From: Anaerovibrio sp. JC8
GTDB lineage: Bacteria; Bacillota; Negativicutes; Selenomonadales; Selenomonadaceae
Length of the DNA stretch: 64,000 nucleotides
Reading direction: 5' to 3'
Assembly: GCF_002100115.1 (NCBI RefSeq)
Contig: NZ_ANBM01000002.1
Location: forward strand, 186,001 to 250,000
Below, piece by piece: positions 31,321-35,828 of the stretch. Position 1 is the stretch's first letter. Each line of letters starts with the position of its first letter. The translations under genes were made by a program, and so were the position numbers. The notes beneath the pieces were generated by a model that was given only the letters and a program-made list of their open reading frames with translations, had not been told where the DNA came from and made no database searches.

Positions 31321-32667
31321 TTATTTTTTCACTTTCCAAATAGTATTTTGTTTTGCTCCTTCTCGTTCAATATATCCCTTATCTCGTAAAGAATTCAAAG
31401 TTCGTTGAATAGTTCGAATCGTCTTATATGTTTTTGTTGCCAATTCCTCTCTTGATAAATCTGGCTTTAGCTTTAAAAGTGCTAATATGGTATTTTCTGT
31501 ACTATTCAATTTTTCAACAGAAGTGACATTAGAAGTGACATTTTCAATGTCACTTCTAAGCGAATTCCTTTTTAGCATAAATTTAAACCCATTCTCGCCA
31601 TTGACGTATGAGTATTCTACACCAGCATCCTTGCACAAACTATTAATTCTTTTGAAGCCGCTCCCAAATTTTTCAATGGATTTATTCAAGAACAAAATTT
31701 TCGTTATTATTGGATTCCGTATCTCTGACTCAATATTACCTTTAATATAATCTTCTGGCTTATATTTACTTGCATATTCACCTGGACTATAAATAGTAAT
31801 CATACTTGGATGGATACATATCTCATGAGTAGTTCTTCCGCCATATATGGCATGAGCAAAACTATTTGCCAAAACTTCTCTGATGACAGTCACTGGCACT
31901 TCAGGAATTTCATTCCTTTCCAAACCAATTATTTCACTGCGCCATCTTATATTCTTAAGAATATATTCCTCTGCATACTTTAAAAGATTAAATATATTGT
32001 CCTCATAAAGTTTCATATCCAAAATAGTTAACTTCTCATCTGTAGCAAATATCCCAACTTTCAATGACACTGGATGATTATTACCGAAAAGAACTTCACC
32101 TGCATTGGTTAAAAAACCATCTCTTACAAGACCAAATCTTTTCAAAATAATCGGACAAGTATATCTCCCTTGAGGTAATCTTCCCGCTTCTATTGCATTC
32201 TGCCAAAACATCTTAATAATGCGCCTATCTATCTGCTTCTCTGTTATATCAGAAAGTGTTTTTTCCCACTTTTCACGGTATTTATTAGTACCAAAAAAAA
32301 CTCTCAGTTCTTCTGGCGTTACTTCACGATCTTCATCAGCTGTCCTTAAATAGTATCGGCCAGCAGCGGAATATGGTACGTTTTCACCGCTGAACTCCAC
32401 CTTAATTGTACTATGTCCTTCAAAAATTACTTCTTGAATTGCTGGATAAATTTGTGGTTTTATTGATTCATAAATATTCCTAGATACATCTCTTAATGAT
32501 GATTCAGACACAACCTGTCCAAAGACATATCCGTTAGGCTTTACGCCAAAGTATAATGTGCCTACACCATGCTTATTTAAAATTGATGCTATGGAAATCA
32601 TTGCTTCTTTCATTTCACCAGTGGTTTTCTTAAATTCAAGTGTTTCTGTTTCTTTTCCTAAATTCAC
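31321..32667 (-). CDS. AlbA_2 / HATPase_c_4 / HTH regulator-like ATP-binding protein
   Basis: 448 residues from GTG 32667 (GAGGGGGAA upstream). Domains: Schlafen-type AlbA_2 (about 5-115: ETLEFKKTTGEMKEAM, GVGTLYFGVKPNG), a GHKL-type ATPase C-terminal helper domain (about 195-370: VIREVLANSFAHAIYGG, EKFGSGFKRI), a short Asn/Thr/Ser linker (NVTSNVTSV), and a C-terminal winged HTH (about 390-440: STENTILALLKLKPDLSREEL is split here as LALLKLKPDLSREELA). Codon use is AT-rich compared with both neighbours, suggesting transfer. Six copies of GTCACTTCT/AGAAGTGAC lie over its promoter and in its linker, implying autoregulation. Confidence 0.85.
   Translation of the reverse strand: MNLGKETETLEFKKTTGEMKEAMISIASILNKHGVGTLYFGVKPNGYVFGQVVSESSLRDVSRNIYESIKPQIYPAIQEVIFEGHSTIKVEFSGENVPYSAAGRYYLRTADEDREVTPEELRVFFGTNKYREKWEKTLSDITEKQIDRRIIKMFWQNAIEAGRLPQGRYTCPIILKRFGLVRDGFLTNAGEVLFGNNHPVSLKVGIFATDEKLTILDMKLYEDNIFNLLKYAEEYILKNIRWRSEIIGLERNEIPEVPVTVIREVLANSFAHAIYGGRTTHEICIHPSMITIYSPGEYASKYKPEDYIKGNIESEIRNPIITKILFLNKSIEKFGSGFKRINSLCKDAGVEYSYVNGENGFKFMLKRNSLRSDIENVTSNVTSVEKLNSTENTILALLKLKPDLSREELATKTYKTIRTIQRTLNSLRDKGYIEREGAKQNTIWKVKK
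31519..31557. promoter_or_regulatory. Three operator-like 9-mers inside the regulator coding sequence
   Basis: AGAAGTGAC at 31519-31527 and 31531-31539, GTCACTTCT at 31549-31557. They encode the NVTSNVTS linker. The same 9-mer occurs three times over the gene's promoter, with the same 12-base direct spacing. Confidence 0.65.
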
Positions 32668-32693
32668 TGAAATTCCCCCTCGTAAGCTACAAT

Positions 32694-32738
32694 ATTATAC
32701 ATTAGAAGTGACATTTTGTCACTTCTAATGTCACTTCT
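32694..32738 (-). promoter_or_regulatory. Promoter and overlapping operator of the AlbA_2 regulator
   Basis: Minus strand -10 TATAAT (32694-32699), 17-base spacer, -35 GTGACA (32717-32722). The -35 lies within the 9-mer GTCACTTCT at 32718-32726; further copies are AGAAGTGAC 32704-32712 (in the spacer) and GTCACTTCT 32730-32738. The first two form an inverted repeat with a 5-base gap. Occupancy would block RNA polymerase. Confidence 0.7.
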
Positions 32739-32904
32739 ATTTATTTCATAACGTAACTATACATGACAAGTAGTGCAATACAAGATAAACGTACTATTTT
32801 CATCAAAGGAGGATTTTTTATTATTATAGAGAATAATTTATTAAGCATAGGAAGTACGTTTAATGAATAAGTATTATATTAAACTTTGAGAAGGAATAAA
32901 TAAT

Positions 32905-33894
32905 ATGAAAAAAATATTTGCTATTGTGTTTAGTATTTTTGTTTTACACAATCCAGTATTCGCATTTACTCCTCCATCAAATTGGATTTGTGTAAGTTTT
33001 GATGAAAATTATCCTGTTTCAATTTATATCAACCCTTCAATACAAGATAATGATGCTATAACTTTTTCTTTGGGTGACACAGAAATTACAGGAATTGAAT
33101 ATATTGTTTTTAATACACCCGAAGGTCGACGAGATTTTTTAAGTAAAATTCCAGGTGTAGGCAATATACTTGCAACCGATGACAACTGTGCATTGATAAG
33201 AGCCTGGGTTGACTATGTATATGATCCAACTGAAGGCAAATTGTATAAAAAATATAATTCCATGAATTTTTTTGATTATAACAATTCATGGACCAGTGAT
33301 TTATATTTACGCGACCTTGGTTTGGACCAATGGGGAGGAGTTATAGAAGGTTTAGCATCTTGGAAGGCTTTCTTTGGAGAAAGAGATTTTTTAATATCGC
33401 GCCGTACCAGGGAAGCCGAAATACATGAAATAAAAAAAGACCCTAGCCGTTGGGGGGAATTATATGGTGAATACAAAGATGAAATGATCAAAAAATGTGA
33501 GATGTCGTGGAGTGGCCGAAAAGATTTTATGATGAAGCTAGACACATACAATGAAAACGACATATCTAAAACAATATACTTAGATGTAAGTTCTATAAAT
33601 CCGACGTTCACAGATTCTAAATGGTATAAATGTTGGATAATGGTTGATTTCTCCCCACCTATGAAAATTACCGATGAACTTTATGCTAAAGACATGCGTT
33701 TTTATACTATTGTGGACTATAGTGATAACACAATATCGACTTGCTTGATAGAAATTAATCCGAGTAAGGGCAAGTGGCAAAAAGAATTTCTGTATCAACA
33801 AAAGAAATTAGGAGAATCTAAAGTTTTAGATTGCATTTACCATAATCTAAAAAAAGGATTCGACAATCAATTTCCAGGAATAACACGCAAATAA
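32905..33894 (+). CDS. Secreted protein of unknown function
   Basis: 329 residues. A signal peptide covers about 1-20 (MKKIFAIVFSIFVLHNPVFA). The N-terminal half is unrecognised. The C-terminal half (about 210-325: IYLDVSSINPTFTDSKWYKCWIMVDFS in outline) resembles surface-adhesin-E-like small beta domains, which share the YIDxSSI and W-K-V-x-Y pattern; this is only a guess. Few cysteines, no catalytic motif seen. AT-rich like its neighbours. GAGAAGGA precedes ATG 32905. Confidence 0.7.
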   Translation: MKKIFAIVFSIFVLHNPVFAFTPPSNWICVSFDENYPVSIYINPSIQDNDAITFSLGDTEITGIEYIVFNTPEGRRDFLSKIPGVGNILATDDNCALIRAWVDYVYDPTEGKLYKKYNSMNFFDYNNSWTSDLYLRDLGLDQWGGVIEGLASWKAFFGERDFLISRRTREAEIHEIKKDPSRWGELYGEYKDEMIKKCEMSWSGRKDFMMKLDTYNENDISKTIYLDVSSINPTFTDSKWYKCWIMVDFSPPMKITDELYAKDMRFYTIVDYSDNTISTCLIEINPSKGKWQKEFLYQQKKLGESKVLDCIYHNLKKGFDNQFPGITRK

Positions 33895-34098
33895 AAGCGG
33901 CATAACCTCAGGTTGACTATAGCCTGTAGTGGTATATATGATTTTTAATCACTAACTCAGATATATGTTTTGCTAGAACTCTATTTTAAATTAGCAAAGT
34001 ATTTTTTGTACAAATATATGTTATCACAACATTAGTGCATATTAAATGTAACATTAAATTCTTACAAAATTGTATATTTACTAAGGAGGCGTTTTTCC

Positions 34099-34350
34099 AT
34101 GAAATATTGTCCATATTGCCAACGTATGGTTAATCCTCGGTATCATACAAACTGGTTCCTTCAAATAATTTTAACACTTTTCACGGGTGGTTTTTGGCTC
34201 CTTATATATATCTTTTATTATATATTCTTCAAACAACCCTGCTGCCCAATATGCGGTAGTAATGATTTAAAAAGCAAAATGCCATCTCCGCCTCCACCAA
34301 TGCAATATCCGCAATATCCACAACAATTTCCTCCACAGCGTAGAATGTAG
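34099..34350 (+). CDS. Small membrane protein with split zinc ribbon
   Basis: 83 residues: CPYC at the N-terminus, one or two hydrophobic segments (about 18-45), CPICG at about 49-53, then a Pro/Gln/Tyr tail. The two CXXC pairs could join into one zinc ribbon across a membrane hairpin. Unknown function. Strong ribosome site AAGGAGGCG before ATG 34099. The region 33895-34098 before it is AT-rich, with no other feature seen. Confidence 0.7.
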   Translation: MKYCPYCQRMVNPRYHTNWFLQIILTLFTGGFWLLIYIFYYIFFKQPCCPICGSNDLKSKMPSPPPPMQYPQYPQQFPPQRRM

Positions 34351-34480
34351 ATTTGCATATACATTACATAATACATATAATGGCAGCTATTAATGGAGCA
34401 TTTTCAAAATCTTTTATCCTATTGTTTTCATTTGAATCAGTCATTACCAATGCCAATTTAAACATAATCTTTTAATAACA

Positions 34481-34521
34481 AAGCCCCAGTTTCTAGTTTA
34501 TTGAACCTGAAACTGAGGCTT
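34481..34521. terminator. Terminator between the small membrane protein gene and purA
   Basis: 13-base stem AAGCCCCAGTTTC (34481-34493) with GAAACTGAGGCTT (34509-34521), one mismatch; convergent genes on both sides. Confidence 0.8.
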
Positions 34522-34538
34522 ATGTTATTCTATCCTAA

Positions 34539-35828
34539 TTATTTAAATAAGTCATCAGCGATGATGATGGTCTGATCACGGTTAGGACCAACGGATACGA
34601 TGCCCAGCTTAATACCAGTAACCTCAGCCATGCGCTCCAGATAAATACGGGCCTTTTCTGGAAGATCCTCATACTTTCTGATGCCGCTGATATCAGTCTG
34701 CCAGCCCTCGAAGGTCTCGTAAACAGGCTCTACCTCAGCCAGCACCTTAAGGGATGCAGGAATCTCGTTAAGCATCTCGCCCTTGTACTTGTAGCCTACG
34801 CACATCTTGATTTCTGGCATAATGTCCAGAATATCCAGACGGGTAATGGCCATGTAATCAATTCCGGAAAGCATACCAGCATAGCGTACTACGCAAGCAT
34901 CCAACCAGCCTGTACGACGTGGACGGCCGGTAACTGTGCCATACTCATGACCAGCATCGCGGATCTTGTCGCCGATTTCGTTAAGCTGCTCAGTTGGGAA
35001 TGGGCCCTCACCAACGCGGGTGCAATATGCCTTAACAACACCCACAACCTTGCCAATATCACGAGGAGCCACACCGGCACCAACGCAAACACCGCCAGAA
35101 ACAGGATGGGAAGAAGTTACATAAGGGTAGGTACCATAATCAATATCCAGCATAGTGGCCTGGGCACCCTCGAAGAGAATCTTCTTGCCAGCCTTGATTT
35201 CATCGTGGAGAAGAGCAATAGTATCACATACATAAGGACGGAGGCGATCAGCATAGCCATTGTATTCCTCTAAGATAGCCTCATAATCAAATGGCTCCTT
35301 GCCAAAAACGCCCGCCATCAGCTTATTCTTAATGGCCAGATTTTCCTTTAAGCGCTTGGCAAATTCTTCCTTGTCGATGAAGTCACAAACACGGATACCA
35401 ATACGGTTATCACGATCCACATAGCATGGGCCGATACCATTCTTGGTGGTACCAACCTTGTTGGCCCCCTTCATTTCCTCAAGGCAGACATCCATTTCAC
35501 AATGGTATGGCATTACCACATGGGCACGGTTGCTGATACGGATACCGCTTACATCAATACCCTTTTCAATCATGCCATCCATTTCCTGAAGCATAACCTT
35601 TGGGTTAAAGGCAACGCCGTTACCCACCACATTTAAGGTACCCTTGAACAGAATACCGGATGGCATAAGACGCAATTTATATTCAACACCATCAACGGCC
35701 ACGGTATGGCCTGCATTGCTGCCGCCCTGAGAACGGACAACAACCTCTGCCTGCTGTGCCAAATAATCAACAATCTTTCCCTTGCCTTCGTCACCCCACT
35801 GGGTTCCCAGGATTACTACTGAAGCCAT
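34539..35828 (-). CDS. purA: Adenylosuccinate synthetase
   Basis: 429 residues from ATG 35828 (GAGGGGAGAG upstream). Motifs: QWGDEGKGKIVD (P-loop and catalytic Asp), GSNAGHT (catalytic His), TKNGIGPCYVDR, and GRPRRTGW. Joins IMP and aspartate using GTP, the first step from IMP to AMP. Just downstream of purB on the same strand, separated by a hairpin. Confidence 0.98.
   Translation of the reverse strand: MASVVILGTQWGDEGKGKIVDYLAQQAEVVVRSQGGSNAGHTVAVDGVEYKLRLMPSGILFKGTLNVVGNGVAFNPKVMLQEMDGMIEKGIDVSGIRISNRAHVVMPYHCEMDVCLEEMKGANKVGTTKNGIGPCYVDRDNRIGIRVCDFIDKEEFAKRLKENLAIKNKLMAGVFGKEPFDYEAILEEYNGYADRLRPYVCDTIALLHDEIKAGKKILFEGAQATMLDIDYGTYPYVTSSHPVSGGVCVGAGVAPRDIGKVVGVVKAYCTRVGEGPFPTEQLNEIGDKIRDAGHEYGTVTGRPRRTGWLDACVVRYAGMLSGIDYMAITRLDILDIMPEIKMCVGYKYKGEMLNEIPASLKVLAEVEPVYETFEGWQTDISGIRKYEDLPEKARIYLERMAEVTGIKLGIVSVGPNRDQTIIIADDLFK

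Follow-up and report, generated by a model that had tools for sequence, protein, structure and literature searches.

This locus raises the question of why a regulator gene should carry the same short DNA word both over its own promoter and inside its own coding sequence. In the window, by which we mean the whole stretch of 64,000 nucleotides from Anaerovibrio sp. JC8 that was analysed, the 9-mer GTCACTTCT/AGAAGTGAC has six exact matches, and a chance origin was rejected since dinucleotide shuffles gave a mean of 0.30 and a maximum of 2. Three copies of GTCACTTCT form an array over the −35 element and spacer of the promoter (32704..32738, minus strand; single sites at 32704-32712(-), 32718-32726(+) and 32730-32738(+)), and three more lie within the gene (31519..31557, minus strand; sites at 31519-31527(-), 31531-31539(-) and 31549-31557(+)), where they encode residues 371-383. 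The distance between the promoter array and the in-gene array is 1.17 kb. The promoter itself (32694..32722, minus strand) has a −35 GTGACA, a 17-bp spacer and a −10 TATAAT and agrees with the consensus in 11 of 12 positions; promoter-like matches as a class showed no excess in the region (8, against a mean of 8.7 in shuffles). The sequence-only reading had claimed a 9-mer shared by promoter and gene, two direct sites at 12 bp plus one inverted site in each cluster, and an overlap of the promoter cluster with the −35 and spacer; all six copies were found where it had placed them and in that arrangement, with GTGACA-17-TATAAT running from 32722 to 32694 on the minus strand. All five copies of the 12-mer AATGTCACTTCT in the 2.68-Mb genome are at the regulator locus. 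The gap between the inverted AGTGAC and GTCACT cores is 5 bp in the promoter and 9 bp in the gene, a difference that counts against the explanation favoured below. A terminator-like hairpin was scored over the promoter array as well (32699-32731, plus strand; one found against 0.6 expected in shuffles).

The regulator gene (31321..32667, minus strand, GTG start, 448 aa) is an open reading frame with Pfam PF04326, PF13749 and PF13412 over their cut-offs. Its domain order is SLFN_AlbA_2 (residues 6-116, 32320..32652, minus strand, E 7.5e-16), HATPase_c_4 (residues 284-351, 31615..31818, minus strand, E 6.1e-9), linker, and a C-terminal winged helix (residues 388-434, 31366..31506, minus strand, Pfam HTH_24), with bit scores against cut-offs of 59.2/25.3 for PF04326, 36.2/26 for PF13749 and 25.3/21.9 for the winged helix. 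The window protein thus has the domains of the SLFN_AlbA_2/HATPase_c_4 regulators, a group that we take to be COG2865-like. COG2865 is termed RecG-like in the available part of one paper. The winged helix is the proposed reader of the arrays, with KTIRTIQRT as its putative recognition-helix region in the alignment. An AlphaFold2 monomer model built on 58 aligned sequences had a mean pLDDT of 85.3 and a pTM of 0.56, and residues 371-384 were its sole segment with pLDDT below 50, a point in favour of the reading proposed below; the in-gene cluster encodes the NVTSNVTS linker there, as had been claimed. The top Foldseek match among solved structures was PDB 3lmm, DIP2311 of Corynebacterium diphtheriae (E 4.7e-21), which has 16% identity to the window regulator. 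Membership in a known anti-phage system was rejected, as PADLOC defence models matched the regulator only partially (best E 3e-7, positions 408-597 of an 876-position model) and never in full length. A 329-aa ORF at 32905-33894 is divergent from the regulator and by eye has a signal-peptide-like start; the stretch 32739-35111, which holds it, is free of the 9-mer even when one mismatch is allowed. The same genome has at least three further HATPase_c_4 matches, on G000 contigs C4 (L075), C6 (L105) and C5 (L119), where L numbers designate related loci; L075 has another in-gene array (GATGTCGCCCAA) and another recognition helix, VSKKTIER.

One scan of genome contigs gave 65 related loci. The close group comprises 34 genes, the window gene among them. 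Both clusters recur there: 31 of the 34 genes have two or more GTCACT/AGTGAC cores in the linker, 29 have them in the 110 bp upstream, and 27 in both places. The exceptions to cores in both places are L004, L005, L017, L023, L025, L003 and L201. In L201 the core differs, L017 and L025 have in-gene cores without promoter GTCACT, and L003 only seems to lack promoter sites: owing to its broken frame a wrong upstream stretch was counted, and the promoter does have them. L003 itself, with 79% identity, has a frame broken early and arrays retained, being either an assembly error or a pseudogene. The in-gene pattern of close members is xSDIxxVTxDVTx, and its GTC ACT spelling is constant while the adjacent codons drift. 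Linker valines were GTC in 63 of 64 cases against 179 of 851 elsewhere in the same genes, and linker threonines were ACT in 58 of 59 against 188 of 823, counts which are uncorrected for relatedness and include near-duplicates such as L010 and L016 twice. Among 81 fourfold columns, taken at 80% amino-acid conservation or more and with N-containing homologues left out, the four linker V/T columns rank 1-4 (0.84-1.0 against a mean of all of 0.48). On the two sides of the inverted pair, the codons next to the core often mirror each other as reverse complements, as in AGA/TCT (R/S), CAA/TTG (Q/L) and ATA/TAT (I/Y); this pairing fails for AAA with TTA/TTG in L018, L019, L021 and L024, for ACA in L002 and for CAT in L014 and L200. 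The suggestion that the DNA rather than the peptide is conserved is borne out both by these most frozen of fourfold codons and by the shifting together of peptide and operator between clades, and the check proposed with it, whether relatives keep the in-gene sites, came out in its favour. Judged from these alignments, selection on the linker acts at the DNA level.

The wider family was collected by PF13749 and window-protein searches in other groups and comprised at least 206 distinct ORFs after removal of duplicates, its loci being among the matches listed, plus 40 regions; ORFs whose last 150 residues were identical, homologues in which one or the other end was missing, and too-short upstream stretches were left out before counting. 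Among the matches listed, a linker tandem repeat of period 12 occurred in 47 of 143 full-length homologues and in none of 429 control windows from the same genes, and one of period 24 in 33 of the 143 and in 1 of the 429. For these 143 homologues, again among the matches listed, periods 11, 13 and 21 were found in 5, 2 and 2, and periods 6, 9, 15 and 18 in none. Promoter arrays, which are under no codon constraint, have the 12-bp spacing too in the window, L005, L027 and L206, and the commonest same-orientation spacing in the close promoters is 21 bp. One circular DNA word, AAAAGTTCGGTG, is read in two frames, as KSSV in L044 and EKFG in L054, and the frame of the unit differs within single genes of L073, L204 and L205. 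All 11 copies of LGEK, which come from 7 loci, are spelled TTG GGT GAA AAG, and 10 of 12 copies of TTQK are spelled ACT ACC CAG AAA. The LGEK array DNA of L048, a MAG labelled Thermoplasmata archaeon, is identical to that of the bacterial L045, L050 and L173, which is either transfer or a binning error.

These spellings bear on the explanation by peptide-level selection or plain repeat slippage, in which the linker would matter as a tetrapeptide and the agreement in DNA would be a side effect. Twelve base pairs are four codons, the linker sits at the same place in distant homologues, and VGEK (3 of 6 alike) and GVEK units have mixed codons, all of which would fit; the frozen synonymous codons of the V/T, LGEK and most TTQK units, the lack of periods 6, 9, 15 and 18, and the match of the in-gene array to non-coding promoter DNA speak against it, as does L028 (a Treponema MAG), whose inverted array, RSDIRSDIRSDIRSD, runs up to an assembly gap. 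With codons frozen and one DNA word read in two frames, peptide selection was rejected, and we consider it highly improbable.

If the linker is conserved as DNA and read by the gene's own protein, the promoter and in-gene cores should be compared between clades. In several clades they match, with GTCACT, GGCACT, TGTCC and GTCGG as the respective cores. L201 (GGCACT) has TACAGTGCCAT in the promoter and GATGGCACTGTA in the gene, L203 (TGTCC) has ATATGGACATTT and twice AAATGTCCAGATA, and L118 (GTCGG) has TGTCGGTTTGAAT and three times AATGTCGGTTTG; L212 and L218, with 42-43% identity to the window protein, carry near variants of the L203 arrays. By best ungapped match among 142 promoters, the own promoter was unequalled for L203, L027 and L020 and equalled once for L118, and by this simple score 8, 33 and 96 other promoters were equal to or better than the own one for L201, L217 and L218, respectively. 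When eight clade representatives, chosen by eye after the data had been seen, were reassigned, 6 of 40320 reassignments reached the observed promoter/linker match sum, and for the five with different cores only 1 of 120 did, the true one. For homologues with arrays that fall below the close-clade cut (36 genes), the own promoter had a mean rank at the 0.42 percentile (0.5 being chance), with 10 of the 36 under 0.1. Promoter copies of TTQK, LGEK, SSQK, GLVD and other distant array types were sought and mostly absent; these genes may lie in operons, or the copies may have diverged or never existed. In the G092 (L118) family a match was found in 1 of 13 genomes, namely L118. The promoter copies are convincing in some clades only, which also counts against the explanation favoured below. 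The promoter of L207 has TGTCGC/GCGACA sites and its linker array is unrecognisable. L206 has about eight direct 12-bp units of the type TTGATAAATGAC in its promoter, six of them with TTGATAAA, and a partial linker match (CAGATAAATGA), and L124 scored high for promoter/linker similarity without any array, which was taken as chance.

The array also varies together with the winged helix. In the 47 array-bearing genes, with N-containing homologues left out, array similarity rose with winged-helix identity once N-terminal identity was controlled for (partial r 0.62, permutation p 2e-4), whereas no such relation to N-terminal identity was seen with the winged helix controlled for (partial r 0.06, p 0.09); without the close clade (35 genes) the values were 0.52 and 0.04. 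Among eight genes with N-terminal parts 80-92% identical, the winged helices are 38-59% identical where the arrays differ and 78-86% identical in the pairs with one and the same array (L045/L050, L049/L053); in the pair L047/L057 of this group 74% identical winged helices go with arrays two bases apart. Inversely, L173 with L045, L048 and L050, and L186 with L046, have N-terminal parts only 27-30% identical, yet share winged helices of 58-83% identity and the same array. In the alignment, KTVRTVQR/KTIRTIQR goes with TGTCAC, KSLRTIQR with GGCACT, KSEKTVQR with TGTCC and VTKRTIER with TGTCGG. An [RK]T..R recognition helix, a pattern chosen by eye after the data had been seen, occurs in homologues of which 13 of 14 have at least two linker TGTC/GACA words, compared with 24 of 97 lacking the pattern; the homologues compared were those below the close-clade cut, still including L037, L201 and L217 and with N-containing ones left out, and the 4-base core is common by chance, words outside arrays being counted too (L207). 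Since array and winged helix are adjacent, linkage alone could produce their correlation, and the promoter match in some clades is for this reason the independent argument for a binding site.

In L044, L046, L050, L053, L057 and L188 perfect repeats adjoin the winged helix and single or degraded units of another type lie further upstream, as if older modules had been overwritten. From these patterns we read the array plus winged helix as a module that has repeatedly been exchanged between family bodies. The stronger form of this, a portable reader plus address in which an in-frame 12-bp array and its winged helix are swapped as one piece between SLFN_AlbA_2/HATPase_c_4 bodies, with remnants staying behind as a fossil record, stands for us at even odds. 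In type I restriction, the recognition domains of HsdS are swapped as a specificity module on a conserved body; in the regulator family, the DNA site would in addition travel with its reader inside the ORF.

Targets of the regulator were searched in 23 genomes that contain close homologues. In 22 of them the strict palindrome AGTGACA-n(2-12)-TGTCACT is present, at 36 places in all against 6 for the reversed control, and by coordinates 35 of the 36 are at the gene's own locus, the exception being G717:C277. The direct repeat GTCACT-n6-GTCACT occurred at 37 places, of which 26 belong to the own locus; the 11 others are regarded as background because the reversed control pattern gave 22 matches. 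No targets beyond the own gene were thus found above background with the two strict patterns in the 23 genomes. With sites over the −35 and no other such targets, the self-regulation proposed by the sequence-only reading is well supported, and the regulator probably represses its own gene.

Two Succinivibrio species point to how the second array may act. L004 (Succinivibrio faecicola) and L005 (S. dextrinosolvens) are 76% identical to the window protein and have no in-gene core. In L005 four similar modules of about 122 bp, each with an operator array, stand in tandem upstream of the gene (L005:1720-2130), and no arrays were found downstream of it. L004 has two arrays upstream, one of them on another contig that overlaps the start of the gene's contig, and a further array about 25 bp past the stop codon, one base different from its promoter array. 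Because these extra arrays lie outside the ORF, the evidence, which comes from one lineage with two species, speaks for two or more arrays in cis, rather than an intragenic site, as what is maintained. Main and auxiliary operators in cis, as looping repressors need, are present as arrays 1.17 kb apart in the window and in alternative positions in Succinivibrio.

A loop between the two arrays or a block of elongation had been suggested, and both are plausible. In the second case, protein at the in-gene array would stop RNA polymerase before the winged helix and the promoter sites would be a separate brake. In 31 of the 34 close members the array comes shortly before the winged-helix segment, and such roadblocks have precedents, in the available parts of the papers, in C.Kpn2I (PMC6237814) and in LacI at O3 (PMC3711431). 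A further point in favour of a roadblock is that in many homologues with arrays a promoter copy could not be recognised. However, L005 has its four arrays upstream and none found downstream, and a block at the distal array of L004, past the stop codon, would leave the full-length coding sequence. As a complete explanation we hold the roadblock to be rather unlikely. Bridging, which would need an oligomer of the protein, is preferred because of the Succinivibrio arrays and the promoter arrays; as the main role of the in-gene array it has a little better than even odds in our estimate, against a roadblock, which as that role appears doubtful.

Direct-repeat arrays inside the ORF of their reader could instead be iteron-like, serving replication, maintenance or mobility as an origin-like or element-end site for the protein. 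The 12-bp tandem arrays in 47 of 143 linkers would suit this, as would the patchy occurrence of the family, including the 76%-identity homologues in Succinivibrio, and the arrays at both gene ends in L004. Origins inside the initiator's own gene are described, in the parts of these papers that are available, for SPP1 G38P (PMC3485210), RepC of repABC (PMC2783167) and lambda O (PMC6022878). As is proposed for the window regulator, each of these proteins has sites inside its own coding sequence; in contrast to them, the regulator has one array on the −35 and no replication partner was seen, and its match to phage_rep_org_N stayed under the cut-off (15.1 against 49.8 bits). No neighbour family occurs in more than 5 of 53 loci when ORFs overlapping the gene are set aside, by which an operon partner was rejected as well. 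Viral contigs scanned with one query gave no relative, and a phage origin was rejected on this single scan. An iteron-like role is improbable.

The palindrome could also act in RNA, as an mRNA hairpin or as an RNA-binding site of the AlbA_2 domain. Of six in-gene segments folded, those of the window (z −4.1), L006 (−2.8) and L027 (−2.5) beat their shuffles, but direct-repeat arrays fold less unusually (L118 z −0.45, L217 +1.6, L203 −1.8), because of which a hairpin was rejected as the general explanation, and the matching promoter sites lie at or upstream of the −35, beyond the expected transcript. We regard an RNA-level element as very unlikely. Much the same holds for in-gene sites that are inert although bound, which has been put forward for many intragenic sites of PhoB (PMC10294691): the PhoB sites are described as unconserved in the available text, whereas those of the regulator are strongly conserved and covary with the promoter, and there is very little chance that they are inert.

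Sites of a gene's own protein within its ORF are already known from C.Kpn2I, lambda O and RepC, in the portions of those sources that are accessible. For C.Kpn2I, the controller protein of a restriction-modification system, the accessible text of PMC6237814 describes a site in its own ORF at which a roadblock was demonstrated. By that text it is an autoregulator with a site in its own ORF and negative feedback, as is proposed for the window regulator, and it differs in domain make-up and in having no site upstream of the gene's promoters; in the window, the in-ORF site does not replace a promoter site, as a promoter array is present too. LacI has the auxiliary operators O2 and O3, with bridging and with autoregulation at a distal site (PMC3711431). 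As far as that source is available, it shares with the regulator several operators in cis and bridging, again proposed for the latter, but in the regulator the distal array lies in the ORF before the last domain and covaries with the promoter, and the gene itself is the only target found with the strict patterns. No description of in-gene operators in the SLFN_AlbA_2/HATPase_c_4 family and no functional study of the family were found in the open PMC text, which mostly lacks subscription papers; among open PMC papers naming COG2865, PF13749, PF04326 or HATPase_c_4, none was on in-gene operators by its title and the start of its abstract. The co-evolving pair of promoter and in-gene arrays and the apparent reader-plus-site module look new.

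In answer to the opening question we propose that the winged helix of the regulator binds a 12-bp unit that differs between clades (AATGTCACTTCT in the window) and is repeated in arrays. One of these spans the −35 and spacer of the regulator's own promoter, and the second lies 1.17 kb downstream in the ORF's disordered linker, just ahead of the winged-helix segment. Protein on both arrays would repress the gene, the in-gene array serving as an auxiliary operator in cis by bridging or looping or by a higher local concentration, and the linker peptide would be a by-product of the operator DNA. We give this reading as a whole, with joint autorepression from both arrays and a linker peptide set by the operator, a probability of roughly 0.6. 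At the level of sequence it draws on the arrays, the DNA constraint, the covariation of the in-gene array with the promoter in several clades and with the winged helix, and the lack of further strict-pattern targets above background. That the in-gene array is a binding site of the gene's own protein, which we infer from covariation only, is very probable; binding by the winged helix, repression, and cooperation or bridging between the arrays are what these patterns suggest.

Should this hold, a kind of protein linker that tends to be set aside as low complexity would turn out to be regulatory DNA, readable as such throughout a regulator family that is widespread. With a site present in every gene, the sequence of many family members may by itself, without an experiment, tell what DNA their proteins recognise, and the arrays of the family would be a natural set for relating winged-helix residues to operator bases. 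If the module reading is true, a swap would bring both a new specificity and its own in-gene binding site, and DNA-binding specificity would write the amino acids of the linker, in any frame or orientation that keeps the ORF open. The arrays would then offer a test of how a regulator changes specificity yet keeps self-control, with reader and site moving together.
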